Positions 32,571-64,000 of a stretch of DNA of 64,000 bases are shown here, one piece after another (the stretch's first letter is position 1; each line of letters starts with the position of its first letter). The stretch comes from Anadara kagoshimensis (taxonomy: Eukaryota > Mollusca > Bivalvia > Arcoida > Arcidae). The stretch covers positions 33,206,835 to 33,270,834 of the forward strand of contig CM037869.1 in the NCBI GenBank assembly GCA_021292105.1, in the 5' to 3' direction. Below the pieces are notes generated by a model that was not told the DNA's origin, did not search any database, and saw only the letters and a list, made by a program, of their open reading frames with translations. The translations under genes were made by a program, and so were the position numbers.

Positions 32571-34684
32571 ACAAGAGGCCCATGGGCCTTAACGCTCACC
32601 TGTGACCTTGACCTTTGAACCCATGAACTTCATTTAAATATCAAAACGATAATTACGGTAGGCCAATATTCTAATATACATCCCTATACAAAAAGTTTAT
32701 AGTTTTTGAGATCGGTACTTGTTTGTATCTGTGACCTTGACATTTGAACCTATAACCTTCATTCATATATCAAAATGACCATTGTGCCATTACCAACAAT
32801 ATTCTAATATACATGCCTATACAAAAAGTTAATTGTTTTCAAGATAATTAATCATTTAGGTATTCATTTGCATCTGTGACCTTGACCTTTGAACCCATGA
32901 CCTTCATTCATATATCAAAATGATCATTAGGATAATACCTAAATATTCTAATATACATGCTTATACAAAAAAGTTTATAGTTTTTGAGATAAATACTCAT
33001 TTCAAAACTTGTTCACATCTGTGACCTTGACCTTTGAACTCATGACCTTTATTCATATATCAAAATGACCATTGGGCCATTACCTACAATATTCTAATAT
33101 ACATGCCTATACAAAAAGTTCATAAGTTTTGCAGATAATTAACTATTTTGGTAAACTTGAACATCTGTGACCTTGACCTTTGAACCAATGACCTTAATCT
33201 ATATATAAAAATAATCGTTACATCAGTACCAACAATATTCCAATACACATGCCTATACAAAAAGTTTATAGTTTTCAAGATAATTAACAATTTTGGTATT
33301 GCTTTGCTACCGTGACCTTCACCTTTGGACCCATGGCCTTTTTCTATACATCAAAACGATCGTTACATCCATACCAACAATATTCTAATAAACATGTCTA
33401 TATAAAAAGTTTATAGTTTTCAAGATACCGGTAACTAACAATTTTGGTATTGTTTTGCTACCGTGACCTTCACCTTTGGACCCATGGCCTTTTTCTATAC
33501 ATCAAAACGATTGTTACATCCATACCAACAATATTCTAATAAACATGTCTATATAAAAAGTTTATAGTTTTCAAGATAATTAACAATTTTGGTATTGTTT
33601 TGCTACCGTGACCTTCACCTTTGGACCCATAACCTTTTTCTATACATCAAAACAATTGTTACATCCATACCAACAATATTTTAATATACATGTCTATATA
33701 AAAAGTTTATAGTTTTCGAGATAATTAACCATTTTGGTATTGATTTGCTACTGTGACCTTGACCTTTGGACCCATGACCTTTTTCTATACATCAAAATGA
33801 TCGTTGTATCAATACCTACAATATTCTCATATACACGCTTATACAAAAAGTTCATAGTTTTCAAGATAATGAACCATTTCAGAATTCTTTCGCATCTGTG
33901 ACCTTGACCTTTGAACCAATCATCTTAATCTATATATCAAAATGACCTTCGGGCCATTATTTACAATATTCTAATATACATGCCTATACAAAAAGTTCAT
34001 AGTTTTGCAGATAATTAACTATTTTGGTATAGTTGTACATCTGTGACCTTGACCTTTGAGCCCATGACCTTGATCGATATATCAAAATGATCGTCATGTC
34101 AATACCTACAATTAACCAAAAATCCTACGTCATTATCATCAGAAATGTTTAAAAATAGCATTTTTTATTAAAGGTCAAAAACTGGGACATGACTATGACC
34201 TTTGACCTTGACATCAATTAAAGGAAAATCGCAAGACAAGATCAACAGTGAAAACTCCATACAATTATCTTCAGCCGTTATGAAGTTATAACAATAAATG
34301 CCTCATTTTAGAAATTATGTAATTTTACGTAAAAAACATGTAACCTATTTTTCGTCCAATTTTCATGAAAAACATAATTTTAATGTTCCTAGGCATCCTG
34401 AATCCAAAAATCTAATCAAAATTTGCCTGCACCTTTTGGTTTCAGAGAAGAAGATTTTTTTGTCTTTTGGCTATTTATAGTAACGGCAGCCATATTGTTG
34501 GGCGTGGTCAAACCCCGAACACAATTTTGAAAAACTGTTACCCATGCATAATAATCACCAAGTTTCATCAATTTTGGCTCAGTAGTTTTGGAGGAGAAGA
34601 TTAAAATGTAAAGTTTACACACGACGGACGATGATAGATAGCAATAGCTCAACAGGGCCTTTTGGCTCAGGTGAGCTAAAAAAA
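32571..34684 (+). mobile_element. Minisatellite element type 1 (Pearl/HINE-like), copy A
   Basis: 5' end ACAAGAGGCCCATGGGCCTT then AACGCTCACCTG; 3' end GGGCCTTTTGGCTCAGGTGA then GCTAAAAA. The core has about 10-11 units of about 145 bp with TGTGACCTTGACCTTTGAAC, ATGACCTT, TATATCAAAATGA, ATATACATGCCTATACAAAA and AGATAATTAACCATTT. Units at 33300-33620 are nearly identical (recent expansion). A unique 3' part starts near 34150. Confidence 0.8.
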
Positions 34685-35039
34685 TATTTTTCATTCATCC
34701 AAAAGTGAATTTAATTCTGTACATAGAGCAATTTTTGAAGTTTTATCAAAACAACAGATTACTTTAAATGAATGTCATAATCGGAATATTCATGATGATC
34801 ACACCCAGAAAATAACTGAATAACAATGACCTACCTGACACTAAATACCCAGATGAAACTTTGGATGAGGTGCAATTGGTGCTTTAACTTGATCAAATAT
34901 CCTAAATTTCTCTATGTACAGAAAGAATAGAATAATGATGCTTTCATTAAAAATATAATTCCTTTAGGTCTGTGCGTTTTAAATTCATTTTAATGATAGT
35001 TTAATGGCAACATTTTTGATTGAGAGAAATAAATAATAA

Positions 35040-37027
35040 ACAAGAGGCCCATGGGCCTTAACGCTCACCTGAGGAAGAGTACATATCTTATGCAGAGGTT
35101 CAATGGTCAATGACATTATTAAAAGAGAATATCAAAATTTTCAGCAGTAAGGGCCAATAATATGCAAGTATTTTTGCAAATTAATTATAATAATTATTAT
35201 ATAAGTATGCTATATATAACATATTTAAAGTCTAGCTACAATATATTATTTATAAACAGCTAAAACATCTGTATGCCAATACCTACAATATTCCAATATA
35301 CATGCCTATACAAAGAGTTTATAGTTTTTGAGATAATTAACCATTTAAGTATTCGTTTGCATCTATGACCTTGACCTTTAAACCTATGACCTTCATTCAT
35401 ATATCAGAATGATTGTTGTGCAAATGCCTACAATATTCCATTGTACATGCCTATACAAAAAGTTTATAGTTTTTGAGATAATTAACCATTTAAGTATTTG
35501 TTCGCGTCTATGACCTTGACCTTTGAACCTATGACCTTCATTCATATATCAAAATGATTGATAGGCCAATACCTACAATATTCTAATATACATGCCTATA
35601 CAAAAAGTTTATAGTTTCTGAGATAATTAACCATTTAAGTATTAGTTTGCATCTATGACCTTGACCTTTGAACCTATGACCTTCATTCATATATCAAAAT
35701 GATTGTTAGGCCAATACCTACAATATTCCAATATACATGCCTATACAAAAAGTTTATAGTTTTTGAGATAATTAACCATTTAAGTATTCGTTCAATTTTA
35801 TGACCTTGACCTTTGAACCTATGACCTTCATTCATATATCAAAATGATCATTAGGCCAATACCTACAATATTCCAATACACATGCCTATACAAAAAGTTT
35901 ATAGTTTTTGAGATGATTAACCATTTAAGTATTCGTTCGCATCTATGACCTTGACCTTTGAACCTATGACCTTCATTCATATATCAAAATGATCGTTAGG
36001 CCAATACCTACAATATTCCAATATACATGCCTATACAAAAAGTTTATAGTTTTTGAGATGATTAACCATTTAAGTATTCGTTCGCATCTATGACCTTGAC
36101 CTTTGAACCTATGACCTTCATTCATATATCAAAATGATCGTTAGGCCAATACCTACAATATTCCAATATACATGCCTATACAAAAAGTTTATAGTTTTGC
36201 AGATAATTAACTATTTTGGTATTCTTGGACATCTGTGACCTTGACCTTTGAACCCATGACCTTTATTCATATATCAAAATGACCATTGTGCCATTACCTA
36301 CAATATTCAGATATACATGCCTATACAAAAAATTCATAGTTTTGCAGATAATTAACTATTTTGGTATTCTTGGACATCTGTGACCTTGACCTTTGAACCC
36401 ATGACCCTGTTCTATGTATCAAAATGATCGTCATGTCAATACCTACAAATAACTGAAAATCCTACGCCATTATCACAAGAAATGTTAAAAAAATAGGATT
36501 TTTTTATCAAAGGTCAAAAACTGGGACATGACCTTGACCTTCAACCTTGACATCAATTGGAAGAAAATTGCAAGACAAGATCAACAGTGAAAACTCCATA
36601 CAATTATCTTCAGCCGTTATTGAGCTATAACAATAAATGTCTCATTTTTAAAATTACATAATTTTACGCAAAAAACGCGTAACCTATTTTTTGTCTAATT
36701 TTCATGAAAAACACAATTTTAATGTTCCTAGGTATGCTGAATCCAAATATCCAATCAAAATTTGCCTGCACCTTTTGGTTTCAGAGAAGAAGATTTTTTT
36801 GTCTTTTTGCTATTTTTAGTAACAGCGGCCATCTTGTTGGGCGTGGCCAAACCCCGAACACAATTTTGAAAGGCTGTTACCCAGGCATGATAATCACCAA
36901 GTTTCATCAAATATGGCCCAGTAGTTTTGGAGGAGAAGATTAAAATGTAAAGTTTACGCACGACGGACGACTGACGACGATAGATTGCAATAGCTCATCT
37001 GAGCCTTTGGCTCAGGTGAGCTAAAAA
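35040..37027 (+). mobile_element. Minisatellite element type 1, copy B
   Basis: 5' end CAAGAGGCCCATGGGCCTTA, then CGCTCACCTGAGGAAGAGT; 3' hairpin CTGAGCCTTTGGCTCAG followed by GTGAGCTAAAAA. The core holds about eight units of 145 bp, several almost identical at 35790-36200. The 3' unique part (36480-37027) is closely similar to copy A. Inserted in the same orientation. Confidence 0.82.
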
Positions 37028-37942: not shown

Positions 37943-38116
37943 TCCCTTGGGTGGCCTGTATAGAAAGGTTTGACTGTAATGTATTTATTTTTTGTAATAA
38001 ATAAAAATTATCAATATAAGTGAAAGATTGTTGACTTGGACATAAAACTCCAATACTCCACTCCACTTTGTGATCATCCACAGAATACTGTACAAAAAGA
38101 TTTAATAAAGGCTTTT

Positions 38117-39424
38117 TTATGATACAAATTTCTTTAAAGGGGTAACAACTCCACAAAATTTAAAATCCTTCTCAATTAAATACTGTAAAGCATTTAAATA
38201 TTTATGTTTGTCATTTTGAATGTCTTCCAATAAATTTAATTCCTTGTGATTTTTCAGAATCTCCAGATATTCCTGAAGCGTATTACCACTATGTCCCAGT
38301 AATAATGGACACGATTTTATGTCTTCTATACTAAAACCCTGCTCTATTATAAAATCAAAATTTTCCTGCATTTTTATCCGGTCAGCCTGCCATGAATCCG
38401 GGAGACCGAACAACTGAACTTCATAAACACCGATGTCCAGTAACATTGCTAGCTCCTTGTGAAAGACAAGTTTTTTTGAAAACTTTGGAAAGCGTTTAGA
38501 AGATGGTAAGTTCAGAAAATGAGTTATGGAGAGGCTTTGAATACCAGCCTTCTTAGTCTTTTCAACTACCTGTAACATGGTTTTCATGCCTCTGCTGTAT
38601 AAAACATAAATATGATTTACAATATCATTTGACGGAATGTTGTGTTCTAATAAAAATTCCAGTTTCTCAACTAACAATTTCCTTTGCATTTTCTCTATCT
38701 TGTGAAATTTAGTTAAATGTTTTATGTCAACATCTAACATTCTAGACATAACTTCATAATTGCTCTCACAAAGTTTGTACTTTATGTATTTTTCCTTTTT
38801 TATTTTTAGATCTATTTTATTTTGTTGTTGTACATCTTTCTCTACTTTCTCAGATATTGCACTATCATTTATCGTCTCCGTCTTCAATTGTTGGAGAATC
38901 CATGGCTCCAGTTTAACCCCGGGTGATAAACATTTAAAAAAAGCGATTCTCTTTTGCAGTTCTATTTCAGAATAATCCAACCAAAGATTACTTTTTATTT
39001 GTTCTATAGTAAAACCAGATTTCAGAATTACATGAACTTTCTTCAAAAATTTTGGAATAGACGGCATTTTTTGAAAATATTTTTGCTTGGTTTCATAGTG
39101 GTCAAATTCATCTGTTGTGAGATTAAAAACTGACTGAATTAATTCTCTCTTCTGACTAAATCCAAACATATCACAGATCCAGTTATCTGCTGTCGATTTC
39201 AATCCTCTGGCATCGGTCTCAATAGCGGTAATGATTAAATCAGGGTAAATCACTTCAAAATCAATCTGTTTGAGAGCAGTAATTCCAAACAATAGCTGTT
39301 TATTTGTCATAGTCATCACACTAGGGCACGCTTTAACTTTTTCCACAGAACATCCGCCTTTCTCTAGAAGAAGCAACCTACGATGTGCTAGATAAATCTT
39401 CCTCTGTGTAGGCTTAATACCAGC
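38117..39424 (-). CDS. mTERF copy 1, exon 2 (mTERF domain)
   Basis: Begins AGIKPTQRKIYLAHRRLL just after TATTGCAG; ends ...VVTPLKKFVS, stop at 38117-38119. Repeats of about 30-35 residues with Leu/Ile at helix positions and the LGH/GLP turns typical of mTERF folds. 3' flank (38000-38116) resembles that of copy 2 (ACTCCACTTNNTGATCATNC, CTGTACAAAA). Confidence 0.85.
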   Translation of the reverse strand, partial: AGIKPTQRKIYLAHRRLLLLEKGGCSVEKVKACPSVMTMTNKQLLFGITALKQIDFEVIYPDLIITAIETDARGLKSTADNWICDMFGFSQKRELIQSVFNLTTDEFDHYETKQKYFQKMPSIPKFLKKVHVILKSGFTIEQIKSNLWLDYSEIELQKRIAFFKCLSPGVKLEPWILQQLKTETINDSAISEKVEKDVQQQNKIDLKIKKEKYIKYKLCESNYEVMSRMLDVDIKHLTKFHKIEKMQRKLLVEKLEFLLEHNIPSNDIVNHIYVLYSRGMKTMLQVVEKTKKAGIQSLSITHFLNLPSSKRFPKFSKKLVFHKELAMLLDIGVYEVQLFGLPDSWQADRIKMQENFDFIIEQGFSIEDIKSCPLLLGHSGNTLQEYLEILKNHKELNLLEDIQNDKHKYLNALQYLIEKDFKFCGVVTPLKKFVS

Positions 39425-42400
39425 CTGCAATAGTATAATAGACAGCAGATTTGAATAAAATTTTAACACAAGTTTGAAGAAAAAATATTTTACCTTATGT
39501 TAGTCACATAACACAAGACCATGTAGTTTTCAGAAAAAGACTATAATCAATGTATACATATATCTCTGAAAAAGACTATAATTAATGTATACATACATCT
39601 CTGAAAAAGACTATAATCAATGTTTACATACATCTCTGAAAAAGACTATAATTAATGTATACATACATCTCTGAAAAAGACTATAATTAATGTATACATA
39701 CATCTCTGAAAAAGACGAATTCAAGTCAATTCGCCCCACGGTAAATTCGCCCCGTCTAATTCGCCCCACTTTCATCAAATTCGCTCCCATGTCAAAATTG
39801 CCCCCACTTCTTGTAAATTCGCCCCCGCTGTCATCAAATTCGCCCCATGTCAAAATGGCAGTAGCTATGATATATATATAGAATAATACATATCAGACCG
39901 AGGACTTTAGCCTGAGGTTTGATATTGGTCAAGGTCTGATATGGCATATGATATGGATTTCACAATGTTTTATTCTGTTTATCATAAACTTAAATTTTTA
40001 CCATTTAAAACAAATACTTGCATTAAATACAGACATTTATCTAACATTAGACTAGTTTTTCTATCTGATTTGACGAAATACAAGTTTTATCGAACACGCA
40101 TGTTACAGAATCTTGTATCACCACAGTGTGGTGATACAATATTGGCGGTAAAGTGCACGTGCACTTTCTCATTGTGACGTCATCAGGGAGTCTTCGATTT
40201 GTCATGTCATTACTACAGAACAAATGTCATAACATAGTTCAGTGGTTTTCTGTGGTAAAATGTAATTTTTTCACATAAAGTATTGTTTTTTATTGTTTTA
40301 AATAACCTAATTGGAAATGTTAGATAAAAATACTATATACACAGTATGTATGTACAACCCTTCATATCAGGTCCAGTCTTTTTTTCGTAGCTGTATCACT
40401 ACTCATCGCGCAAGCACTGTGTATATAATATGTATGCACGGTGTATATAATATGTATTTATCAAGAATATAACACAAAAATCAACTTGGCGGCAATTAGA
40501 CTATTTAGACTATTCTAAATGCATTCCTCCAAATAATCCCATTGGCATAATATTCTTCGTTTATTTATAAGGCGTAAGGATGCCATCGAAGAATTTTCTA
40601 ATTAATAAAGTGATTAGATCTATTTGGTCCGAGTAGCCGGTCTGATATTGATGCGGCTTTTTTGACCCGGCACGTGCGGTCGGTGATATGGATAACGTCA
40701 TTTTAGCCGTATCTAGGCATGCAGAAACTACGTACTTACTACAAATTATAATAAATTTCGTTAACACGATGCAAAACTTCCCAGATATGAATACCTGCTG
40801 TCAACCTATGGAGACTCCAAAGAGGGAGATCTCCCCCCTTGACAGTGCTGCTCGGTGGGAGATTTTGCATAACAATATTTTTTGTGTAAAAACCGACTAA
40901 AACACCATTCATACCTCATTCAATTGTTTAATCTTCATCAAATTTTAATAATCTGAACAGAGACCCATTGCATAATGTTTCTTAGAGTTTTAAATACCGG
41001 TAATATTTTCAGAATGGTCATAAGATTGAAATACTACATTGTATATTCACTACTATTGTTCCAGGGAACTTAGATAGTGGCTTTTTGTCAATTAAGGTTT
41101 TATGTTTAATATTTTATATTCAATGCTACACATATTGAATCTAAAATATAAAAGCCCAATTAAATGTCAAAAAATAAGTGTTCTACAGCCCTCTGGTTTT
41201 GCTCTACATACCGAAAATTAGTTGATTTTTAAACACTGCACATATGCCTCTCGTTATTCGTGCCTTGTATGCAAAATTAGAGCATTGCATGAAGGGTAAT
41301 TATTATACATATACATGAGTATGAGTAAAACCCGAACCACACACCTGTAAGACAACCTTGTTTTTACCTGTGTGATAATAATGAGTATGCAGGTCAACCA
41401 GGTGTGATGTACACCTATCTGAGGTACATTTAGGTATATATACAACACATTGATTTTTTCTGTTATGAAAGACGACAAAAGTTTCGGTATACAACTGTTT
41501 TGTAATTCAAGTTCAATTCAGCAAACCTCTTAGGTTTGATAGGTGATATGATTTTATTTACAGGAATATCAAAATAAGTAACAATATTACAATACTTGAT
41601 TTTATATTAAAGATAAATCGACTATCTAAGTTACCTGGAACAATTATTATAGTTACTGCATGTTTACTAAAACCTTTTTTTAAATTTTATTTCACTCTGT
41701 TTATTGTTAAAAGTGCATAATAACTTTATAATAAGCTTCTGATATTTTTCATGTCATAGTTGAGCATGACATTTTTTTATAAATGAATAATTAAAACAAA
41801 TTGTTTGAAAATAAACTAAAGATGAATAAAATTATGTTGTTTAATGTCATAATGATAAATGAATAAATACACCATATTCTAGAATAATGCCAGTCTTACA
41901 TTATTCCTGTCAATGCTGAAAATTCACAATATAGATAGTTCTTTTCTTGTTTGAGTTATCCCCCTTTGGTAAACAACATGGTTTGACAGATGCTCCCCCC
42001 TCCCACTTTTTAGCAATGATTTAACCATTTAACATCGAGCGATCCGATAATGCTTTTATTTATGGATTATTTCGTGAAAAGGGAACATTCTAAGCAGGTC
42101 TGTTACATTATTCAAAAAAAATTGAAGTGCAATGTGCAATTTATGTTACCGGTACCTCCTGTATGCAGTACTGTTTTACCTATGTATACCCGATATACAC
42201 AGGTGTTATTCTAGTACCCGTGCTGTTAATTAACCATTTATGATCAATCATGGGTGGATAGATTAATTAGTGTCTCTATACAAACAATCAACATCTGGGA
42301 TCTTAAAAATTTGAGTAATTAATTCATAAGAGAAGACTTCGAAACAAGAGGCCCAATAGGGCCTGTAACGCTCACCTGGGCCGTTAACAGCACAAAAACA

Positions 42401-45400
42401 CAATAAATACTACATTTAAGGAGCAATAACTCTGATGTGGATATTTAGATATTTATGAAACTTGCTACTCGCATCTGTGACCTTGACCTTTGAACCAATG
42501 ACCATAATCTATATATCAAAATGATGATTGCATCAATACCAACAATATTCTAATATACATGCCTATACAAAAAGTTCATAGTTTTCTAGATAATGAATCT
42601 TTTTGGTATTGTTTTGCAACCATGACCTTGATCTTTGGACCCATGACCTTTTTCTATACATCAAAAAGATTGTTGTATTAATACCTACAATATTCTAATA
42701 TAAATGACTATATAAAAAGTTAATAGTTTTCGAGATAATTAACGATTTTGGTATTGTTTTGCTAATGTGACCTTGACCTTTGGACCCATGACCTTTTTCT
42801 ATACATCAAAATGATCGTTAAATCAATACCTACAACATTCTAATATACATGCCTATACAAAAAGTTAATAGTTTTCAAGATAATGAACCATTTCAGTATT
42901 CTTACGCATCTGTGACCTTGACCTTTGAACTAATGACCTGAATCTTTATATCAAAATGATCGTTACATCAATACCAACAAAATTCCAATATACATGTCTA
43001 TACAAAAAGGTTATAGCTTTCAAGATAATTAACCTTTTTGGTATTGATTTGCTACTGTGACCTTGACCTTTGGACCCATGACCTTTTTCTATACATCAGA
43101 ATGACCGTTGTATCAATACCTACAACATTCTAATATACATGCCTATACAAAAAGCTTATAGTTTTAAAGATATTGATCCATTTCAGTATTTTTTCGCATC
43201 TGTGACCTTGACCTTTAAAACAATGACCTAAATCTATATATCAAAATGATCGTTACATCAAAACCAACAACATTCCAATATACATGTCTATACAAAAAGT
43301 TTATAGTTTTCAAGATAATTAACGATTTTGGTATTGTTTTGCTACTGTGACCTTGACCTTTGGACCCATGACCTTTTTCTATACATCAAAATGATCGTTG
43401 TATTAATATCTACAACATTTTAAAATACATGCCTATACAAAAAGTTAATAGTTTTCAAGATAATGAACCATTTCAGTTTTCTTTCGCATCTGTGACCTTG
43501 ACCTTTACACCAATGACCTGAATCTATATATCAAAATAATCATTACATCAATACCAACAATATTCTAATATACATGCCTATATAAAAAGTTTATAGTTTT
43601 CGAGATAATAAATAATATTAGAAAGGTAAAAAATTAGGTCATGACCTTCATAATTGACCTTGACACCATTTTGAGGGTAATTACAAGAATATGTCAAAAC
43701 TGAAAACCCATGTTATTATCTGGTCATATAGTCAAGTTATAACAATTTAAAAATATTTTACGATTTTTGCAAATTTAAACGCAAAAACGCGTAACCTATT
43801 TTTGAACCAAATTTCATGAAATGAACAAAATTAAAGGTTAAGACTATGTAGAATCCAAATATCACATCAGTTTTTGCCTCCAATGAGTGGTTCAAGAGAA
43901 GAAGATTTTTTTAGGTTTTGTCTATTTTTAGTAACAGCGGCCATCTTGGATATTCGATCGTCATGATTTGAACAAACTATAGTTAGACTCTGTCAAGGAC
44001 CTTCCATGGCAAATTTGGTTTCATTTGGCCCAGTAGTTTCGGAGGAGAAGATTAAAGTTTACTGATGCAAGCACGGACGCACGCACGCACGGACGCACGC
44101 CTCGCCATGCCATAAGCTAACATGGCCTTTGGCCAGGTGAGCTTAAAAGGGAAGTCAAATCAGAAGATTTTAACCTTCGAGCGGGAGAAGCAGTGATTGC
44201 AGGTGATTCCAAAATTTTTGTCTTGATATCGGTAGACTCCCTCTCATATTGGGAGGGTTGGCAGGTATGGATATGAGGAAAATTTATTGGCGTTCACACA
44301 CATGGAATATAAAAATTGATTTTAATGCAGTATTTCACAGATATTGAAACAAATATCAAGTCCAATTTAAATAGTGTTTGTTTGTTGTTGTTGAATGTTG
44401 CTTAACCTCACATCAGCAATTTTTCATCTATTTGCAACAAAAACTACTTTATTAATCTCTGTGTATTAATCTATGAACAAGTTCGTGTATGCATGTGAAG
44501 TGCCAGTATGTTTATGGTCTGCCTTGTACCAGTGTGCACTCTGGGAGACTTTAGGGTGCTACCTCACCGAGTCAGTACACAGCAGACAAGCGTACCGCTT
44601 CCCCAGTCACCTTATACTGACACTGTGTGAACCAGTAAAGGTCAACAGCAAGGAAAATTCACTTTCCCATATGTGGTATGACCATCTGAGAGGGACTCGA
44701 ACTAAACAGTGAGAGACTCTATATTTGTAAACTGAAGTTTTATCCGTTAGGTCACTGTGGCCTCTCTCTGTCAATGTTTTCAAATACATACCACTTGTAT
44801 TATAACCTCACAAAGGTCCAATAAAAAATAAGATCAATTTTCTTGCAGTCGACCGGAAACGAGTTATTCTTCTTAATTTAACCCAAGTACGGAGCCCCTG
44901 AAGGGACACACTTGAAAAAAATATTAAATCGTAATAACGATATACTAAATCGTTATAACGATATATTAAATCGTTATAACGATAAACTAAGTCGTTATAA
45001 CGATATACTAAATCGTAATAACGATATACTAAATCGTTACCACGATATACTAAATCGTTATAACGATATATTTCAACTAATGTAGAAATGGCGGCCGAAG
45101 GGTCTGTCAGCGTACAGGCTCGAGGGTACCGCATACACCAGTGTACCGGACAGACACCAGTGTACCGGAAACGGTCATGTCTAAGTAGTATATGAATTCG
45201 GATAGAGAAAAAGTCGCAGATTTATATATTTACTTGATTGTTTCAGTAATAATGCACTATGTGTTACATTTTATATCTTGCAAATAAAGAAATTCAATGT
45301 CCTATATGCCTTAATGGATACAAAAATTAATTTTTTAATTTATTTCGCCAAATGATCCCTTTGTTAAAGCCTTAGTGAGCTATAATGATCGTTACGTGCA

Positions 45401-50784: not shown

Positions 50785-50825
50785 TTCGAGAATTTGACAT
50801 AATTTTGGAATGCGATTTTAAGTCC

Positions 50826-52469: not shown

Positions 52470-53160
52470 ATGAAGGGCCACCGTTGGCTGCCATCGTTGG
52501 TCCAATGGTGGCAACTTACATTGGGTCATCGTTGGCATTTATGATTGGTACAACGATACCAGATAAATAAGATAACGTTGGCCCAACATTGGCAGGTTAT
52601 GTTGGCCCATTGTTGGCATTTATGGTTGGTACAATGATGGCCCGCTGAGCAAGATTACGTTGGCCCAACCAATGGCAACTTACGTTGGCCCATTGTTGGC
52701 AGTTTATGTTGGCCCATTGTTGGCAGTTTATGTTGGCCCACTGTTGGCATTTATTGTTGATACAACGATGGCCCGAGGCAAGATAACGTTGGCCAAACAT
52801 TGGTAACTTACGTTGGCCCAACATTGGCCAGTTTATGTTGGCCCATTGTTGGCATTTATGGTTGTACACGATGGCCCGATGAGCAAGATTACGTTGGCCC
52901 AACATTGGCAGTTTATGTTTGGCCCATTGTTGGCATTTATGGTTGGTACAACGATGGCCCGATGAGCAAGCTTACATTGGCCCAACATTGGCAACTTACG
53001 TTGGCCCATCGTTGGCAGTTTACATTGGCCCATCGTTGGCATTTATGTTGGGTACAACGTTGGCCCGATGAGCAAGGTAACGTTGGCCCAATGATGGCAG
53101 CTAACGTAGGGCCAACAAACCCAACAACAACGGGCCAACGTTGGCCCAACATATGTTTGC
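52470..53160 (+). repeat. TTGGCCCAAC/TTGGCCCATC array, higher-order
   Basis: Units of about 28-32 bp (ACGTTGGCCCAACATTGGCA, TTATGTTGGCCCATTGTTGG) are grouped into higher-order blocks ending TTGGTACAACGATGGCCCGA then TGAGCAAG, repeated about five times. Confidence 0.85.
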
Positions 53161-53264: not shown

Positions 53265-54035
53265 TGTCCTGAGATAATTAACCATTTCAGTGTGACCTTG
53301 ACCTTTGAACGAATGACCTTCGTTCATATATCATAATAATCTTTAGGCAAATGCTTACAATATTCTGATATAATCTTTATACATGTAGTTCGAGATAACG
53401 AGATTCAACTGCAGTTTTCAAGATAAATAACATTTAAGTATTCATTTGCATCTCTAACCTTGACCCTTGATCTTCATTCATATATCAAAATGACCATTGT
53501 ACCATTACCTACAATATTCTAACAGTCTAATATACGCGCCTATACAAAAAGTTGATAGTTTTGCAGATAATTAACCATTTCCGTATATTTGTGCATCTAT
53601 GACCTTGATTATGACTTTTTTACCCCACAATGATCTATGCATCAAAATGATCGTTATGCCAATACATACAATGTAATAAAGTGAAAATCCCATGCCAAAA
53701 TCAACTGAAATAAATAACAATAAATAGCAAAAACTCCATACAATTATCTTCAGCCGTTGTTAATTTTCACAATTAATGTCTCATTTTACGCAAAAAACGT
53801 GTAATCTAATTTTCGTCCGATTTTCATGAAAAACACAATTTTTATGTTCCCAAATTTTTTGCCTTTTAGCTATTTAAGCAACGACAGCCGTCTTCTTGGG
53901 CATGGCAAAACCCCGAACACAGTTATGAAAGCCCGTTATCCAGGCATGATAATCATCACCAAGTCTCAAATTTGGCCCAGTAGATTAAAATGCAATGTTT
54001 ACACACGACGCACAACAAACGGTGATAGATAGCAA
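53265..54035 (+). mobile_element. Minisatellite element type 1, decayed copy E, 3' end joined to a SINE
   Basis: Three to four worn core units (GTGTGACCTTGACCTTTGAA near 53292) and the type-1 3' unique part (ACGCAAAAAACGTGTAATCT, CATGAAAAACACAATTTT, CCCCGAACACAGTTATGAAA). It ends at GATAGATAGCAATAGCTCA, where copies A and B go on to their 3' hairpin; here a SINE-A begins instead. Confidence 0.7.
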
Positions 54036-54365
54036 TAGCTCAGTTGGTAGAGTGCTCGCTCCGTAAGTGGAAGGTTGTGGGTTCTAACCCCGACCGGATC
54101 TGACCCAAGACTTGAAAATGGGTAGCGACTGTTCTTTCGCCAAGCGTTCGGCATTACGAAATGAAAGTCACGGTTCTTTCGGATGGGAACTAAAAATAAA
54201 CGAGGTCCCGTGTCACGGTGTGCTTGGCACGCTAAAGAACCCTGCTGTATAATGCCATCAGCACAATGCACAGGCAAATTTTTTGCATTTTCGCCTATAG
54301 CTGGCGACGTCTCGATATAAGTGAAATATTATCGACTGGGACTTTAAACACCATTACTCACTCAT
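54036..54365 (+). mobile_element. SINE-A copy fused to element E
   Basis: AGCTCAGTTGGTAGAGTGCT, GTGGGTTCTAACCCC, GACCCAAGACTTGAAAATGG, TGTCACGGTGTGCTTGGCAC, AACCCTGCTGTATAATGCC, ends ATAAGTGAAATATTATCGAC and TAAACACCATTACTCAC. Close to the 37.6-kb copy. Confidence 0.85.
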
Positions 54366-55934
54366 TCACCCGAACCTTTGACCCTTAGATCAATGAGGTT
54401 ACTAGGTCAAATCATAGAAAAACATTGTTAGCCTTCTAGTCACTGCATTTAAATTATTCATCCAACCTTCATCAAACTTATCCAAAATGATCAACATGAC
54501 CAAATTTACGTCTGTTGTATATATAGGTCATTGGGGACAAATTATTGGGACACTAGATAAAATCATTGAAAATAATTGTTAACTCTCTAGTCACCAAAAT
54601 TTTCATCCAACCTTTATCAAACTTACCCAGAATGATCTTCATGACCAAATTCTACATCAAGTGTGTACATGTATATGGGTCATGTTGGGCTAATATGTAG
54701 GTCACTAGGTCAAATCATAACAAATCTTGTGTACCCTTTATACACCACATTTTTCATCCAACCTTCATCAAACTTTCCCTGAATGATCTTCTTGACCAAA
54801 TCTGTATAACGTGTGTTTATGGGTCATCTTTGTTCAATGCGTAGGTCACTAGGTCGAATCATAGAATATTTTCAACCCTCTAGACATCACATTTTTCATC
54901 CAACCTTTATCAAACTTTCCCTGAATGATCTTCTTGACCATATCTTTATGGGTCATCTTTGTTCATTAAGTAAGTCACAAGGTCGAATCAAAGAATGTCA
55001 ACCCTCTAGACATCACATTTTTCATCAAACTTTCCCCGAATGATCTTCTTGATCAAATCTGTATAAAGTGTGTTTATGGGTCATCTTTGTTCATTAAGTA
55101 GGTCACTAGGTCGAATCATAGAAGAATATTTTCAACCCTCTAGACATCACATTTATTCCATTCTTCATCAAACTTTCCCTGAATGATCTTCTTCACCATA
55201 TCTTTATGAGTCATCTTTGTTCACTAAGTAAGTCACAAGGTCGAATCAAAGAATGTCAACCCTCTAGACATCACATTTTTCATCAAACTTTCCCTGAATG
55301 ATCTTCTTGATCAAATCTGTATAAAGTGTGTTTATGGGTCATCTTTGTTCATTAAGTAGGTCACTAGGTCAAATCATAGAATAATATTTTCAACCCTCTA
55401 GACATCACATTTATTCCATTCTTCATCAAACTTACCTAGAATGATCTTTGTCATAATATAGGTCATGTTGGGCCAATAAGTAGGTCACTAGGTCAAATAA
55501 TAATAATTATCTCTCATCACCTCATTATTTATCTATTCTTCATTAAACTTATCCAGAATGATTTTCATGATCACTTCTATGCCAAGTGTGTATATAGGTC
55601 ATGTTAGGCCAATAAGTAAGTCACTAGGTCAAATCAAGAAAAACATTGTTAACCCTCTAGACATCACATTTTTCAGCTAACCTTCACCAAACTTGCCCAG
55701 AATGATCTTCATGACCAAATCTATGTAAAGTGTGTATATGGGTCATGTTGGGCCACTGTTACTGACAGTAGGTAACTACCGGTAGGTCAAATCATAGAAA
55801 AACCTTGTTAACACTACAGAATTCATTTTTATTGAAGAACTGTATTAATCCTCTATGTACATTACATTTTTGGAAAAAAATGTGCATAAATAAATTTATT
55901 CTCAGGTGAGCACCAGGGCCTCATGACCCTCTTG
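54366..55934 (-). mobile_element. Minisatellite element type 3 (AGGTCACTAGGTCA core)
   Basis: On the minus strand it begins CAAGAGGGTCATGAGGCCCT then GGTGCTCACCTGAG, the same 5' terminus as type-1 elements. The core has about ten units of 128-145 bp: on the + strand TAGGTCACTAGGTCAAATCA, CCCTCTAGACATCACATTTT, CATCAAACTT.CC.GAATGATC and GTGTNTATGGGTCAT. The far end near 54366 is not clear. Confidence 0.65.
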
Positions 55935-56064
55935 CTACAGAACCCTGATAAACACATGCTGATTGGTCCTACATTTATGTTTGAGACAGACTGAACTATT
56001 TAAGGAATTATTATCATCTAAGGCTCAGTTGCCAAGTGATAAAAAATGGTAACTTACCAATCAC

Positions 56065-56205: not shown

Positions 56206-56215
56206 GCTGGCTTGG

Positions 56216-56390: not shown

Positions 56391-56424
56391 TGTGATAAAT
56401 AAAACTCCATTGATCCACTCCACT

Positions 56425-56800
56425 TACTAGGAGACCGCGGTGGCCTAATGGATAAGACATCAGTCATCAAATCCAGGGTCTCTCTCCGCTGTGAGTTCGA
56501 TTCCCGCTCAGACCACATGTGGGAAAGTGAATTTTTCTTGTCATTGGCCTTTACTGATTCACCTGGTATCAGTATAATGGACTGAGGGAGTGATACACTT
56601 GTCTGCGGCATACTGACTGTGAGCTAGCATGTTAAAAGTTGCCCTGAGTGCGCGCTAGTACAAGGCAGACCATACAACACGTTTACACTTCACATGCATA
56701 CACAAAAATGTTCATAGATTAATAAAATAGTTCTCGTTGCGAATAGATAGAAAATTGCTGATGATACGTTAAGCAACATTCAACCAACCATCCACTCCAC
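56425..56800 (+). mobile_element. SINE-B copy, best preserved
   Basis: GACCGCGGTGGCCTAATGGA, TAAGACATCAGTCATC, box B-like GTTCGATTCCC, CACATGTGGGAAAGTGAATT, CCTTTACTGATTCACCTGGT, end ATTGCTGATGATACGTTAAG then CAACATTCAACC. The tRNA-derived head is distinct from SINE-A. Confidence 0.75.
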
Positions 56801-56879
56801 TTACTGATCATGCATCCACAGATAACAACAACACTGTACAAAATTGTTTAATGAAGACTTTTATCTGATAAAAATTTCT

Positions 56880-58124
56880 TTATAATCTAAAAATGTTCAT
56901 ATGATCCTTCCAAATCAAATACTGTAAAGCATTTAAGTATTTATGTTTGTCATTTTCATACTGTTTCAACTGCCATCTGTTTTTCCAATTCTCCAGATAT
57001 TTCTCAAGTATATCACCCCTATGTCCCAGTAATAATGGACATGATTTTATGTCTTCTTTACTAAAACCCTGCTCTATTAAAAAATCGAAATTTTTCCTAA
57101 TTTTTTTCGGGTTAGTCCGCCATTTATCGGGGAGACCAAATGAGAGAACTTCATCAGTTCTGATGTTAAGTAACTTTGCTAGCTCCAGGTGTGATACAAG
57201 TCTTTCAAAATAAAAAGTTTCTAATTTCACTAATTGAGTTATGACGCGCTTTTGGACATTAGCCTTCTCTGTCATTTCAACTACCTCTAATATGGATTCC
57301 ATTCTTCCTCTTTTCAAAACATAAATATGATTTACAATATCATTTGATGGAATGTTGTGTTCTAATAAAAATTCCAGTTTCTCAGCTAACCTTTCCCATT
57401 CCATTTTCTTCATCATGTGAAATGTTGTTAAATGTTTTATGTCAACGCCTAAGATTAAAGTCAAAAGATCATATTTATTTTTATTATATACATGTATTTT
57501 TAATTTTTTTATACTTTCATTTTGTAGTTTTTCATTTTTCTTTTCTCCTTCTGGCATTAAAGTAGAATTCATTTTCTCTGTTTCAAAATCCTGGAGAATC
57601 CACGGCCAAAGTTTAACCTCAGGTAATGAAAGTTGAAAAGAATTTATTTTTTGTATTGCTTCTACAGAAAAATCCAACAACCAGAAATTGCTCTTAATTT
57701 CTTTCATTTTAACACCAGATTCCAAAAGTAAATAAACTTTCTTTAAAAACTTTGGAATTTCCGAGATTCCCTGAAAATATTTTTGCTCCTTTTCATAGTG
57801 CTTAAATTCATCTGTCGTGAGATCAAAAACTGCCTGAATTAATTCTCTCCTCTGTCTAAACCCAAACTTATCACAGATCCAGTTATCTGCTGTCAATTCC
57901 AATTCTTTGATAGTAGTCTTAATAAGAGTAACTATGAAATCTGGGTGTATCACTTCAAAATCAATCTCTTTGAGAGCAGTAACTACTTCCAGGAGCTGTC
58001 TATGATTCATAGTAATCAAACTGAGACATGCTTTAGCCTTTTCCACAGAACATCCGCCTTGCACTAGAAGAAGCAAATTACTACGTGCTCTATAAATCTT
58101 CGTCTTTGTAGGCTTGATACCACC
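56880..58124 (-). CDS. mTERF-family protein, copy 2, large exon
   Basis: Acceptor TATTACAG ends at 58125; coding begins GGIKPTKTKIYRARSNLL in the same phase as copy 1 exon 2 and runs 414 codons to a stop at 56880-56882. By eye about half the residues match copy 1, with long identical stretches such as EHNIPSNDIVNHIYVL and EDIKSCPLLLGH. The last ~10 residues differ (KDHMNIFRL) because indels shift the copy-1 tail out of frame. The ORF open from TTG at 58076 is only part of the exon. No exon 1 was found up to 64000, so the gene is incomplete here or lacks its presequence. Confidence 0.8.
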   Translation of the reverse strand, partial: GGIKPTKTKIYRARSNLLLLVQGGCSVEKAKACLSLITMNHRQLLEVVTALKEIDFEVIHPDFIVTLIKTTIKELELTADNWICDKFGFRQRRELIQAVFDLTTDEFKHYEKEQKYFQGISEIPKFLKKVYLLLESGVKMKEIKSNFWLLDFSVEAIQKINSFQLSLPEVKLWPWILQDFETEKMNSTLMPEGEKKNEKLQNESIKKLKIHVYNKNKYDLLTLILGVDIKHLTTFHMMKKMEWERLAEKLEFLLEHNIPSNDIVNHIYVLKRGRMESILEVVEMTEKANVQKRVITQLVKLETFYFERLVSHLELAKLLNIRTDEVLSFGLPDKWRTNPKKIRKNFDFLIEQGFSKEDIKSCPLLLGHRGDILEKYLENWKNRWQLKQYENDKHKYLNALQYLIWKDHMNIFRL

Positions 58125-58734
58125 CTGTAATAGTATAATAAAATATTACTTTAACAAGCAGATCTAAACATTGTACTGAATGTTCCTGAAGTATTTACTT
58201 ACTTGGTAATGTTTATACTGCACTGATGTTTACATAGTTTCTAGACTAGGCACATTTTCAGAAAAGTGGTTGTTTTAGAGGAAAAGGCATTTTTAGTAAA
58301 AGCAAACCATATATCCTTCTTACCTAATTTGGGTGTGCTGAGTTCGAAAATGGTGGATACCAAGCTGAAAAATTGCACTTAGTGGGTCAAAATTAAAACA
58401 CAAAATGGCCACTAAAATCAAAATGCTTTGTTGCACGAAACTTTATATAGAAGTTGTTTTAGTAGCAAGAAACAGCTATTAATCAAAGATTGTAATATTT
58501 CAAGGTTTTACTTGGGTGTTAATGAGCAGAAAATTTAAACTAAAGGCCTATGGGACTTATTGCTCAACTGAAAATATTTGGGAGATTCTAAAATTTTAGG
58601 GGCAACAACACCTTCATTGATTTATTTATCATATACAACATTTGCTACAGAGTTAGATCTTGACCCGCAGCATGTTGATTATTTCTGCGACTTGTATGTA
58701 TTTATCTATAATACTTTAACAAAAACACCAAAAA
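58125..58734. other. mTERF copy-2 intron: nothing recognised
   Basis: Starts with TGTAATAGTATAATA, also found beside copy-1 exon 2 (TGCAATAGTATAATA), so the intron end was duplicated with the exon. Similarity then fades. No exon-1-like presequence ORF on the minus strand. Confidence 0.35.
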
Positions 58735-59019
58735 AATCAAAGCACCAATGATGCTGACCAAACAGGGAAATTGGATCTTGATCTGACTATAAATAAACTG
58801 CATTGTCTGCAATTTCAAAGCATTAAGTCAAAGAAAAGCAATTTAATTTTAACATCAGTCAAAGATCTTGTTCTAATTTCTTCTCTAAATGTTTTTCAGA
58901 GACTAAAAAACAATCTTTATTAAATATTTTAAACATGTGAATATAGATTATAAAGTCATTAATTTTAATGAGATGACATGAACTGTCACTGTTGAGTCAG
59001 ACCAGTGTTTCAGCCAGGA

Positions 59020-60425
59020 TTTCATAAGGGTAGGGTGCTGTTGTAACAATGGTCATCTGAGATTAAGGTCAAAAGGCTTTGCAAACTTAGTAGAGCTTGA
59101 AGGTAGGTCAAGGTCAATTAGCTTTGCAAACTTAGTAGAATTTCATGTCCTGATAATATATATCAAATTTCAAGCCTTAATGGTATTTATTAAATGAAAA
59201 AAGATATTTTAAAGTTTTACATTCTACTTAAGGTCACTTCACCTTGAATATAGGTCAAGGTCAACCAGTTTCCCAAAATTGGTAGAACTTTTTGTTCTGA
59301 TGCCATATGAAGTTTCAAGCTCTAAGGCCTTTTGGTTGATGACAAAAGAAGAGGTTTTCAGGTTTCACTTAATTAGGTCACTGTGACCTTGAAGGTAGGT
59401 CAAGGTAACTCACTTCACAAACTTGGAAGAACTTCATGTCCTGATGCTATTGTGAAGTTTCAAGCTGTATGTGAAGTTTCAAGCAACAAGCCTTTTAGTT
59501 CATAACAAAAAGATGTTGCAAGTATTTACTTTTGGTCACTATGACCTTGAAAGTAGGTCAATGTCTACCATCTTTGCAAATTTAGTAAAGCTTTATGTCC
59601 CGATTCTATATATGAAGTCTGGCCATTCTAGTCATTTCCGCTCATGACAAAGTGTTTTTAGTTTAACTTTTACTTAAGGTCACCATGACCTTGAATAAAG
59701 GTCAAGATAAACTAGCTTCCAATAGTTGGTAGACCTTTTTTGTTTCCTGCTCTTAGGGCTTTTGGTTCGTGAAAAGAAGACATTAAGGTTTTACTACTTC
59801 AGGTCACTGTGACCTTGAATGTAGGTCAAGATCAACCACCTTTGCAACTTATTAAAGCCTTATCTCCTGATGCTTTGTACATGTATATGGAGTTTCAAGC
59901 TCCTAGACCTTTCAATTCATGACAAGAAGATGTTTTAACTTCTTTAGGTCAATGTGATCTTAAATGTAGGTCAAGGTCAACCAATTTTGCATACTTGTGG
60001 TCTTTTTTGTTCTAATGCTTTATATAAAGTTTCAAGGTCATAGTCCTTTTGTTTTATGAAAAGATGTTTAAAGATCTTGTTATTTTAGCTTACTGTGACC
60101 TTAAATGTAGGTCAAGGCCAACCATCTTTGCAAACTTGGTCGACCTTTTTGTCCTGATGCAATATATGAAGTTTCAAGCTCGTATCCCTTTTGGTTCGTG
60201 ACAAGAATATGTTTAAAGGTTTCATTACTTTAGGTCACTGTGACCTTGAAGGTCAACCAATTTTCACAAACTTAAAAGGGTTTTGCTCAAGGAACATCTA
60301 TATCCGCTTTTACTATCAATGGTTCACTGGTTCTAGAGAAGAAGTTGAAAATGTTTATGACGCAGGCAGCACAACAGAAAAACAACTATCACTATAGATC
60401 ACCTTCAGGTTTTTGCTCGGGTGAC
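59020..60425 (-). mobile_element. Minisatellite element type 2, - copy
   Basis: Read on the minus strand it starts GGTCACCCGAGCAAAAACCT (60425 downward), has GGTGATCTATAGTGATAG, and runs through about nine TTGACCTTGACCTACAT... / TTCAAGGTCACAGTGACCTA units. Same element type as 27575-29099. Confidence 0.65.
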
Positions 60426-60570
60426 CAGAAAAGGTAATTTTACACATGGAAAGGGACTGTCTATTTTTTAATATCCCAATGGGAAACGGTGTTATTTCTA
60501 AAATGTAAAATATACTTGCAAAATTGATTGTTACATTTTACATGTAATTTTTACCATTCCAAATGAACCG

Positions 60571-60774
60571 TGATAATATTGTATATTTTTTAATTGTTTC
60601 AAAAATATAAAAAAGATACTAAAAGAAAAATTATCAATGAAAAGGGAATATAAATCAATATGATGTACTTTATGATAATATTGTATATTTTTTAATTGTT
60701 TCAAAAATATAAAAAAGATACTAAAAGAAAAATTATCAATGAAAAGGGAATATAAATCAATATGATGTACTTTA
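60571..60774 (+). repeat. Two identical 102-bp tandem copies
   Basis: TGATAATATTGTATATTTTT starts at 60571 and 60673; the two 102-bp units appear identical by eye, ending GATGTACTTTA. Very recent duplication or assembly artefact. Confidence 0.9.
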
Positions 60775-61061
60775 TTTAAAGTGTATTTTATCTTACATTC
60801 ATCAAATAAAAATATCATTTGCAAATAAAATGGGCAAATAGTTACTTCCCTTTAAGGCATCTATATTTAAACTGTCTACTGGAAATACTAATTCAATTAT
60901 TTAAAGTTTACTTATTATTATTTGGTTACTTTATTAAAACAATGTCAATAATATATCCGAGCATCAGCTTTGTTCTACTACATCAACGGTGCTCTAGAAA
61001 TCGGAAGAACTTCAGAAAGCACAATAACTTGTTTTCCAGCATGGCCACATCATATGTGAAA

Positions 61062-61319
61062 TAAAGTAATATGGCTTCATGAAAAGAAATTAAGGGTTGT
61101 AGAAACCATGAATCAAACTACTGACAACAACTTTAATTGGATATTCACTGTAAAATGATCTAATAGGGATTTACAGGGTAAATACAATTTTAAAGTAATA
61201 TGGCTTCATGAAAAGAAATTAAGGGTTGTAGAAACCATGAATCAAACTACTGACAACAACTTTAATTGGATATTCACTGTAAAATGATCTAATAGGGATT
61301 AACAGGGTAAATACAATTT
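61062..61319 (+). repeat. Two near-identical 129-bp tandem copies
   Basis: TAAAGTAATATGGCTTCATG starts at 61062 and 61191; the units differ by about one base (GGGATTTACAGGG against GGGATTAACAGGG). Confidence 0.9.
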
Positions 61320-61320
61320 T

Positions 61321-62915
61321 ATATATAGTTTTAAGATAATTAACTATTTCAGTATCTCTTTGCATCTGTAACCTTGACCTTTGAACCCATGACCTTCATT
61401 CATATATCAAAATGATTGTTAGTCAATGACTAAAATATTCTAATATACATGCCTATATAAAAAGTTTATAGTTTACGAGATAATTAATCATTTAAGTATT
61501 CATTTGCATCTATGACCTTGCCCTTAGAACCTAAGACCTTAATTCATATATCAAATGATCAATGCACCAATGCCTACAATATTCTAATTTACATGCCTAT
61601 ACAAAATGTTTATAATTTTTTTTATATAATTACCAATTCCAGTATTTTTTGCAACTGTGACCTTGACCTATGAATCCGTGACCTTCATCTAAAAATCAAA
61701 ATGACCGTTAGGCCAATACCTACAACATTCCAATATATATGGTTATACAAAAAGTTGATAGTTTTTTTTAGATAATTAACCATTTAAGTATTTGTTTGCA
61801 TCTATGACCTTGAACTCTGAACCTATGACCTTCATTTATACATCAAAATGATTGTTGTGCAAATGCCTACAATATTCTAATATACATGCCTATACAAAAA
61901 GTTAATAGTTTTCATGATAATTAACCATTTCAGTAATATTTCGTATCTGTGACCTTGACCTTTAAACCAATGACCTTAATCTATATATCAAAATGATCGT
62001 TACATCAATACTAACAATATTCTAATATACATGTCTATACAAAAAGTTTATAGTTTTCAAGATAATTAACCATTTCTGTATTGTTTTGCATCTGTGACCT
62101 TGGCCTTTAAACTCATGACCTTTTTCTATACATCAAAATGATCCTTGTATTAATACCTACAACATTCAAATATACATGCCTATACAAAAAGTTAATAGTT
62201 TTCAAGATAATTAACCATTTCAGTATCATTTTGCATCTGTGACCTTGACCTTTGAACCTATGACCTTAATCTATATATCAAAATGATCGTTACATCAATA
62301 CTAACAATATTCTAATATACATGTCTATACAAAAAGTTTATAGTTTTCAAGATAATTAACCATTTCTGTATTGTTTTGCATCTGTGACCTTGACCTTTGA
62401 ACCATGGCCTTTTTCTATACATCAAAATGATCGTTGTATCAATATTTACAACATTCTAATATACATCCCTATACAAAAAGTTTATAGTTTTCCAGATAAC
62501 AATTAAAATCAGAGGTAAAAAAAAAAATTAGGTCATGACCTTCACAATTGACCTTGATCCCATTTTAAAGATAATAACAAGAATATGTCAAAACTGAAAA
62601 CCCCATGTCATTATCTGGTCAAATAGTAAAGTTATAACAATTTGAAGCTATTTTACGATTTTTTCAAAACTTAACTCAAAAATGCGTAACCTATTTTTTG
62701 TTCGAATTTCACAAAAAGATATGGTAGCCATGGTAACGCCACAAACAAATCTGAATTGCACCGGCCCATATATATTTCTTACCAAGTTTCATTAAAATCT
62801 GTCAGGTAGTTTCAGAGGAGAAGTCGAAAATGTGTGTTAACAACGCACGCACACATGCACACACATACACACGCTGCACTATGCCATAAGCTCACATGAC
62901 CAGATGAGCTTAAAA
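61321..62915 (+). mobile_element. Minisatellite element type 1, copy F (5' end missing)
   Basis: About eight core units of about 145 bp (GTGACCTTGACCTTTGAACC) start directly after the 129-bp duplication, with no AGGCCC terminus. The 3' part has GCGTAACCTATTTTTTGTTC and (ACAC)-rich ACGCACGCACACATGCAC; it ends CATGACCAGATGAGCTTAAA. Most like copy C at the 3' side. Confidence 0.75.
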
Positions 62916-63252
62916 GGCAGAGTAAATGGACTTGGTTAATTTTCTATCATTGCAGAAATTGCCAAATTTTTCTCAGTTAAGCTGGATTATTTGCAATTCG
63001 TTAACAAAATAGATAGCAATCAAACACATCTGACAAGTATTATGCTGATGATACTAAATTTGAAAGTCTAGCAATTTATCTGGATTTCTCCAAGATTCTA
63101 ATGATTTCAAGCATTTCTCTACTGAAGAAAATCATTATTGTTGCACACTGATACTGATGTTCTTATAAATGACGTTCACATACCCGCACTACATTATTAT
63201 AATTTGCGCATAGGTTTGTCAATTGGTTGTTGCATTGCCTGTCCTGGTTTTA
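62916..63252. other. Intergenic: nothing recognised
   Basis: AT-rich sequence between elements F and G; no ORF or TIR seen. Confidence 0.3.
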
Positions 63253-64000
63253 AACAAGAGGCCCAATAGGGCCTGTGATGCTCAACTGGCAGGTAATTTA
63301 CATTTTGGATAAATAACCTGCAAATCTTGTGAAATGGCATTCCCCCTCCTTTTTACAATTGCAACTGGAACCAAAGTGGTTGGAAACCAAATCTGCATTG
63401 GTCTTTCATGTTTTTGCTATGTATAGGAACAGAAGCCACCTTGGAGTTTGGCTGATATGCCATACACAACTTTTAGATTACTGTTACTAAAGGACTTTTC
63501 ATGCTGTATTGGGTTAGAATTGGCCAATTCAGGAGAAAATTTTCAATGATTTGGTTGAAACACACATCTTATTTGTACACTACATAAAAATTGGGTCAAC
63601 AATTTTTTTTCAAGAAAGGTAAAACATTAGGTAATAACCTTCACAATTGACCTTGACCTCATTTTGAAGGTAATTACAAGAATATTTCAAAACTGAAAAC
63701 CCCATGTCATTATCTGATCAAATAATGAAGATATGACAATTTCAGCAATTTTTTGCATCCGTGACCTTGACCTTTGAATCCATAACCTTTCTCTATACAT
63801 CAAAATAGTAGTTGAATTATTATCTACAACATTCTAATATATATGCCTATAGAAAATGTTAACAGTTTTCAAGATAATTAACCATTTCAGTATTATTTTG
63901 TATCTGTGACCTTGACCTTTGAACCCCTGACCTTAATCTATATATCACAATTATCGTTACATCAATACCAACAATATTCTAATATACATGCCTATACAAA
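63253..64000 (+). mobile_element. Minisatellite element type 1, copy G (runs off the window)
   Basis: 5' end AACAAGAGGCCCAATAGGGC then CTGTGATGCTCAACTGG, as in copy C; a unique part, then core units from about 63750 (CCGTGACCTTGACCTTTGAA). The 3' end is beyond the window. Confidence 0.75.

Follow-up and report, generated by a model that had tools for sequence, protein, structure and literature searches.

The 64,000-nucleotide stretch of Anadara kagoshimensis DNA analyzed here (contig CM037869.1, positions 33,206,835 to 33,270,834; hereafter the window) contains several copies of a dispersed repeat, type 1, built around a tandem array of 145-bp units, together with two other repeats with tandem cores, types 2 and 3. 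We assign type 1, a large group, to the non-autonomous rolling-circle elements of the Helentron kind (HINEs), as indicated by architecture, insertion preference and one empty site. The account we favor, and consider fairly probable, is that type-1 HINEs exchange parts through the tandem array, with type 3 as a probable sister group.

Genome-wide counts were made over 36 contigs (1.115 Gb), using the backward version of each pattern as a control. A preliminary description of this DNA had proposed that types 1 and 3 share a terminus, and the sequence CAAGAGG..GGCC..GCTCA is present at all five of the places it named: on the plus strand at 32572, 35041, 42345 and 63255, and on the minus strand from 55934. 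The sites were right, although the starts had been placed 1-2 bases early and the copy at 63255 deviates, with GCTCAACTGG in place of GCTCACCTG. The strict pattern CAAGAGG-(4-8)-GGCC-(4-8)-GCTCACCTG matches 11,564 places in the genome (5,874 + 5,690), compared with 0 for the control. The same description recorded the CAAGAGG end and overlooked a mirror-image repeat (..CTCAGGTGAGCTAAAAA) at the opposite end of type 1, which allows the element class to be identified. A stricter pattern for this opposite end has 3,411 matches (control 0), and there are 47,015 exact occurrences of ATACATGCCTATACAAAAAG, a 20-base motif of the type-1 core (control 0), which sets a lower bound on the number of monomers. 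The type-1 copies in the window and their parts are:

32572..34684, minus strand: W1a, type-1 HINE with head class a, a mosaic 145-bp array and a T1-type tail (5' end at 34684, 3' end at 32572)
33162..33891, minus strand: inner block of W1a, five c/g-like monomers, with four a/b-like monomers on its left and one ambiguous monomer on its right
35041..37027, minus strand: W1b, type-1 HINE with head class b, a uniform array and a T1 tail
35046..35057, minus strand: 3' terminal palindrome of W1b, GGCCCATGGGCC
35063..35073, minus strand: 3' subterminal inverted repeat of W1b, GCTCACCTGAG on the plus strand
35275..36448, minus strand: tandem core of W1b, 145-bp unit, 8.1 copies
36993..37021, minus strand: 5' subterminal repeat of W1b with its complementary inverted repeat, GCTCACCTGAGCC-AAA-GGCTCAGATGAGC, -13.0 kcal/mol
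42345..44148, minus strand: W1c, type-1 HINE with head class c, a uniform c/g-like array and a c-type tail
61324..62915, minus strand: W61, headless type-1 core with a c-like tail, four a/b-like monomers from 61362 and four c/g-like monomers from 61944
63255..64000, minus strand: W63, type-1 relative with a different head, running off the window

The four copies named previously are all here; the additional core and tail of W61, which lacks a CAAGAGG end, had been missed. In W63 a piece of c-type tail (~63613-63734, 88%) sits before the core. Two-copy tandem duplications, perfect or near-perfect, are found at 60571-60775 (102 bp) and 61062-61321 (129 bp), near the truncated end of W61 at 61324.

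The layout of W1b is that of a HINE, as had been suggested. Read in minus-strand order, it begins with TTTTTA, GCTCACCTGAGCC, AAA, GGCTCAGATGAGC, a GTC-rich stretch and a unique tail of ~500 bp, and continues with eight 145-bp repeats and a head of ~230 bp that ends in CTCAGGTGAGC, the palindrome GGCCCATGGGCC and CTCTTG, followed by TT. Its subterminal inverted repeats match over 11 bp exactly, compared with 9-10 bp in eight other complete type-1 elements; the length of ~11-15 bp expected of HINEs is thus reached in full by one of nine complete elements and nearly by the others. The 5' hairpin folds at -13.0 kcal/mol in W1b and -9.0 kcal/mol in W1c, and the 3' palindromes, GGCCCATGGGCC in W1b and GGCCCTATTGGGCC in W1c, fold at -4.2 and -6.6 kcal/mol. 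The longest reading frame over W1b, the copy tested, is 79 amino acids. TT targets, subterminal inverted repeats, a 3' stem-loop and central repeats are likewise features of Helentrons, HINEs and DINE-1 (PMC4067079). Type 1 similarly resembles Cg_HINE of the Pacific oyster, which has a 5' subterminal inverted repeat with a complementary inverted repeat, a 3' subterminal inverted repeat with a palindrome, a one-way central array, there mostly of 140-180-bp units, and a TT target without duplication (PMC7492417). By eye, the GTC-rich stretch beside the 5' hairpin of W1b holds the position of the microsatellite in the Cg_HINE layout.

Insertion preference was examined in 38 of the 11,564 CAAGAGG-end loci, 8 chosen by rare spacing and 30 being the first places on contig C1. 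In 35 of the 38 loci the two bases immediately beyond the CAAGAGG (3') end are AA (TT on the element strand), against a nearby AA frequency of 0.14, and the array has the same orientation relative to the head in all 293 core alignments from these loci. At one locus, L023, the host site is a tandem repeat of ~40 bp, and the joined flanks match neighboring intact units at 109 of 120 bases (92%). No target-site duplication is visible at this one empty site, in an alignment whose 3 gap positions leave the junction not fixed to the base. These observations bear on the idea that the repeats are instead cut-and-paste miniature inverted-repeat transposable elements (MITEs). Inverted repeats do lie near both ends, and DINE-1-like elements have been annotated as MITEs in several genomes (PMC4067079). 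However, these repeats are subterminal and the termini themselves differ (CAAGAGG vs AAAAA), the target is A-rich, and no duplication is seen at the one empty site, making this explanation highly improbable.

Beyond the first 34 bp, the heads of the sampled loci sort into five classes (a, b, c, g and gATT) and several singles. The five classes have no BLAST match to one another past that point, yet they belong with one core family; the sole cross-match between heads, of L006 with gATT, is weak (E = 0.001). The type-1 core was found at 33 of the 38 loci (28 of the 30 on C1). L006-L008 hold short pieces of it only, L001, L002 and L003 match no reference, and L021 and L034 continue into another element. 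L034 resembles a type-1 end joined to a 31-bp core, a reading that was rejected, as a second CAAGAGG head lies between; the locus has a 31-bp minisatellite of 12 copies behind this second HINE head, which stands beside the type-1 head. Head class a has no spacer at all. Tails vary as well: a module of ~243 bp, X, replaces the usual tail in L012, L022 and L023, and within X the L022 and L023 copies are identical, while L012 matches them at 82%. L006-L008, with a different head, were assigned X as well, and L021 was so assigned solely by its running into L022. Classes a and b each occur with both kinds of tail, giving all four combinations (a-T1 in 5 elements, a-X in 2, b-T1 in 4 and b-X in 1).

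The arrays themselves are in some cases mosaic. Monomers were aligned and scored between a profile from class a and b arrays and one from class c and g arrays, each array being left out of its own training. All 27 arrays of classes a, b, c and g scored in this way are uniform in sign. W1a is different, with four a/b-like monomers (-31 to -38), five c/g-like monomers (+20 to +50) and a last, ambiguous one (-5, or +2 with only a and c). W61 switches from four negative monomers (-14 to -26) to four positive ones (+23 to +34), and the gATT arrays, mixed in three of three cases, each open with a single negative monomer and then turn positive, in one case at just +6. L004 contributes two weakly positive monomers (+13, +5), W63 a single scored monomer, and L012 and L006-L008 none. 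Overall, 5 of the 33 arrays with at least two scored monomers are mixed. Together, the mosaic arrays and the mixed head-tail combinations point to the array as a site of exchange; the array is probably the place where type-1 parts are exchanged, and recombination within arrays between subfamilies with different heads and tails is the simplest account.

Such exchange could work as follows. The Helentron Rep, helicase and endonuclease would recognize short ends and copy anything between them, and since only short ends would be recognized, mainly the termini would be constrained. The tandem core would supply long in-register homology between copies, and recombination or template switching within the array could then join the head and first monomers of one subfamily to the later monomers and tail of another. 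The core would thus act as an exchange zone more than as swapped cargo.

Several observations weigh against this account. The sample is small, with 30 of its 38 loci from one contig. The a-X combination is represented by two nearly identical copies, L022 and L023, and b-X by L012 alone, which has no scored monomers. Because head a is nothing more than a missing spacer, repeated deletion of a longer head could produce it, and the four combinations would then need less exchange. The g and gATT heads look alike by eye just past the terminus, though BLAST does not join them. W61 and the gATT arrays share the order a/b-like then c/g-like, which an old inherited mixture would fit. Most type-1 elements do not reach 11 exact subterminal bases, and the partly read flanks of candidate autonomous elements, in five clusters and one further group with true ends unmapped (described below), showed no GCTCACCTG-type end.

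Some of these points suggest lineage sorting without recombination, in which an ancestral type-1 element had both monomer types, of which subfamilies retained one or both, and heads and tails were altered by deletions and captures. The common order of monomers in W61 and all three gATT arrays, and the possible origin of head a by repeated deletion, are consistent with this. However, W1a switches monomer type under an a head and with a T1 tail, which in the sample is otherwise paired with a/b-like cores, and the other a-headed arrays are uniform (6/6). Module X also stands behind two cores: L012 is nearest to b elements, whereas L022 and L023 are nearest to an a element, apart from each other and the overlapping L021. 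We therefore regard lineage sorting as unlikely and retain recombination through the array as the better reading of type 1.

Potential autonomous partners were sought through their protein domains. PF14214 has 104 matches in the genome. One frame of 2,611 amino acids carries Helitron_like_N, PIF1 and, below the curated cut-off, Exo_endo_phos, while a second lineage matches Exo_endo_phos clearly in its C-terminal part. Rep, helicase and endonuclease form the Helentron set (PMC4067079), and by these predicted domains Helentron-type genes exist in this genome. The flanks of the candidates were partly read, in five sequence clusters (among 30 loci) and one group of 2,529-amino-acid frames not compared with the five, covering both sides for two groups and downstream only for four. 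The loci L052-L069, L076 and L077 are Helitron-like elements with open frames of up to ~2,600 amino acids. Two of these copies, located on different contigs, show 100% identity over 1,695 and 806 bp, suggesting very recent activity.

Type 3 is represented in the window by one element, listed with its neighbors:

54366..55934, plus strand: type-3 HINE-like element, with its CAAGAGG end (minus-strand reading) at 55934 and the other end missing
54030..54366, plus strand: SINE-like sequence (short interspersed element) with a tRNA-like head, beside type 3 (by eye)
~53290..54030, minus strand: decayed type-1 core and tail beyond the SINE-like sequence (by eye)

The tRNA-like head of the SINE-like repeat at 54030-54366 reads TAGCTCAGTTGGTAGAG, and the repeat is wedged between the decayed type-1 element and type 3. 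The type-3 copy had been taken for a complete element at 54366-55934; its other end is gone where the SINE-like sequence adjoins. One end is therefore all that is seen of type 3, its own 5' subterminal inverted repeat is not seen, and the 3' end folds at -4.9 kcal/mol with no clean palindrome. PMC4067079 groups elements into a family by 11 identical subterminal bases and into a subfamily by 80% identity across the final 60 bp; by this rule, W1b and type 3 have the 11-mer GCTCACCTGAG in common but agree at just 44 of 60 bases. Nearly identical subterminal inverted repeats can occur between otherwise divergent families (PMC4067079).

In contrast to the exchange within type 1, we found no swap of cores between types 1 and 3. 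A type-3 end query of 141 bases, the last ~35 of them core-like, was used, and the best 40 of 490 candidates were scored. Twelve type-3 loci were tested (L078-L089, the window copy included; L081 and L084, which share a flank, are not independent). The type-3 core stands behind every one of the 12 type-3 ends sampled, and no cross was seen among them or among the 38 CAAGAGG loci. The preliminary proposal that parts are exchanged is thus supported within type 1, in the mosaic arrays and mixed heads and tails, and in this sample not for the cores of types 1 and 3, perhaps because these are too diverged to recombine. L079, L080 and L083 have ends that depart from CAAGAGG. L079 was rejected as a double-core element, because a type-1 element with a CAAGAGG end of its own lies nested inside type 3 there. 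L086-L089 are young type-3 copies, whose 145-bp units are ~68% similar to the window copy.

As first described, types 1 and 3 have different cores, and the similarity of their units is weak in shuffle tests. One pair of units aligns with z 3.8 (1 of 300 shuffles as high) and the other with z 2.5 (9/300); with the TGACCT half-sites discussed below masked, 37/200 and 5/200 shuffles scored as high, and hidden Markov model (HMM) matches were equalled by 1-3 of 200 shuffled units. A possible reading, if on the unlikely side, is that shared termini repeatedly took up unrelated filler that was later tandemized, types 1 and 3 being independent fillings. Close matching of the ends next to weak similarity of the cores would fit this, as would head classes that do not match one another, and the same idea has been proposed for oyster Cg_HINE group 2 (PMC7492417). 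On the other hand, both types have a 145-bp unit, and the z of 3.8 comes from one type-1 unit aligning in register with a young type-3 unit. Equal unit length and this alignment make a common but eroded ancestor possible, and type 3 is probably a sister group of type 1.

Type 2, by comparison, has no established ends. Its two copies lie within:

27294..29417, plus strand: dispersed repeat holding the first type-2 copy
58732..60811, minus strand: dispersed repeat holding the second type-2 copy, inverted

The supposed type-2 ends had been read as termini. However, the homology of the pair continues past them (27294-29417 vs 60811-58732), making type 2 part of a larger dispersed repeat of ~2.1 kb. 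The flank outside type 2 is itself dispersed: 16 of 40 places lie within 200 bp of a type-2 match, both window copies included (lists of the best 40 each, out of 175 and 140 candidates). The presumed 3' end of type 2 hardly folds (-1.1 kcal/mol). Because the flank is repeated along with type 2, its ends are not established as transposition termini, and we rejected the idea of a third family, type 2, bounded by defined ends. For the pair, an inverted segmental duplication was rejected as well, the flank being a dispersed repeat in its own right. Two further sets of repeats lie in the window. A 1.4-kb repeat pair (38057-39440 and 56791-58140, 75% identical) adjoins the elements studied, and two minisatellites that neighbor each other at 51006-51770 and 52495-53041, with GTTGG/CCAAC words and units of ~40 and 81 bp, look related by eye.

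Comparison of units between type 2 and the other types gave a mixed picture. In unit alignments, 143 and 9 of 300 shuffles scored as high for types 1 and 2, and 184/300 for types 3 and 2. In HMM searches, 2-10 of 200 shuffled units scored as high for types 3 and 2, and no shuffled unit reached the best match of types 1 and 2 in four of four runs, these matches being short (16-71 model positions) and one of them on the opposite strand. Shared half-sites may suffice for the matches of types 1 and 2, because shuffling destroys half-sites. On these alignments, a common origin of the three cores is neither established nor excluded.

What the three cores do have in common is the half-site TGACCT. 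Its density is 17.1, 19.4 and 14.2 per kb in types 1, 2 and 3 (type 2 from the two window copies only), while the remainder of the window has 0.81, upstream flanks 1.78 and autonomous-element loci 0.14. Single window arrays have 9-22 per kb, against shuffle means of 0.5-1.1; three other tandem arrays in the window have none, where just 0.1-0.5 would be expected. The half-sites form direct pairs 1 base apart in type 1, form direct pairs mostly 3 or 5 bases apart in type 3, and in type 2 form inverted pairs 3 apart and direct pairs 1 apart. The inverted pair matches the consensus of the estrogen response element. Perfect inverted sites, AGGTCAnnnTGACCT, number 8,897 genome-wide against 56 for the backward pattern, a contrast that is not independent evidence because the counts largely reflect copy number; of the first 50, 29 fall on the inner side of a CAAGAGG end at a distance of up to 5 kb, where 2.4 would be expected, and 2 on the outer side. 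Half-site conservation was matched by 0-6 of 144 rotations in type 1 and by 0 and 10 of 143 in type 2, and was unremarkable in type 3 (29-111/144), a pattern that speaks for a possible function in types 1 and 2 and not in type 3.

We consider it rather improbable, though of interest, that the cores are kept as arrays of nuclear-receptor half-sites (TGACCT/AGGTCA) and do not act as neutral filler. The arrays would then attract host receptors, perhaps in the germ line, making the element accessible for replication and spreading receptor sites across the genome. In a quieter form of the idea, the half-sites would be related to the subterminal repeat (GGTCACC/GCTCACC) and serve the transposase, and common origin of the cores could be another source of the motif. 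Among the matches listed in our literature search we found no earlier report linking nuclear-receptor sites with Helitrons, satellites or molluscs, and none of the literal end sequences; the nearest analog among them is HNF4 sites in Alu repeats (PMC3252374). If the receptor idea were true, the genome would also possess a store of nuclear-receptor sites in over ten thousand elements.

Type-1 elements are familiar in kind, and they make a good case for exchange of parts through the array. By description, they can be likened to Pearl (CvA, CvE, CvG), DTC84 and MgE of bivalves, which are also non-autonomous with a central tandem array (PMC7492417, PMC11136912). Shared ends around different cores, seen here as first described, had already been reported for Cg_HINE group 2, with its related flanks and unrelated repeats, and the oyster authors likewise failed to link autonomous elements (PMC7492417). 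Compared by description, the two systems differ in that each Cg_HINE array cluster has one specific flank pair (PMC7492417), whereas here one core family has five head classes and some mixed arrays. Recombination of arrays and Helitron components is also on record in oyster, where complex loci of C. gigas were formed from satellite arrays and Helitron parts via insertion, deletion, tandemization and recombination (Satovic-Vuksic and Plohl 2021, cited in PMC11136912). HINE arrays are a proposed source of bivalve satellite DNA, with the route by which ends and arrays recombine unsettled; the options considered for oyster are capture, cut-and-replace and recombination (PMC7492417). With mosaic arrays and mixed head-tail combinations in one genome, the breakpoints of such exchange can be mapped directly.

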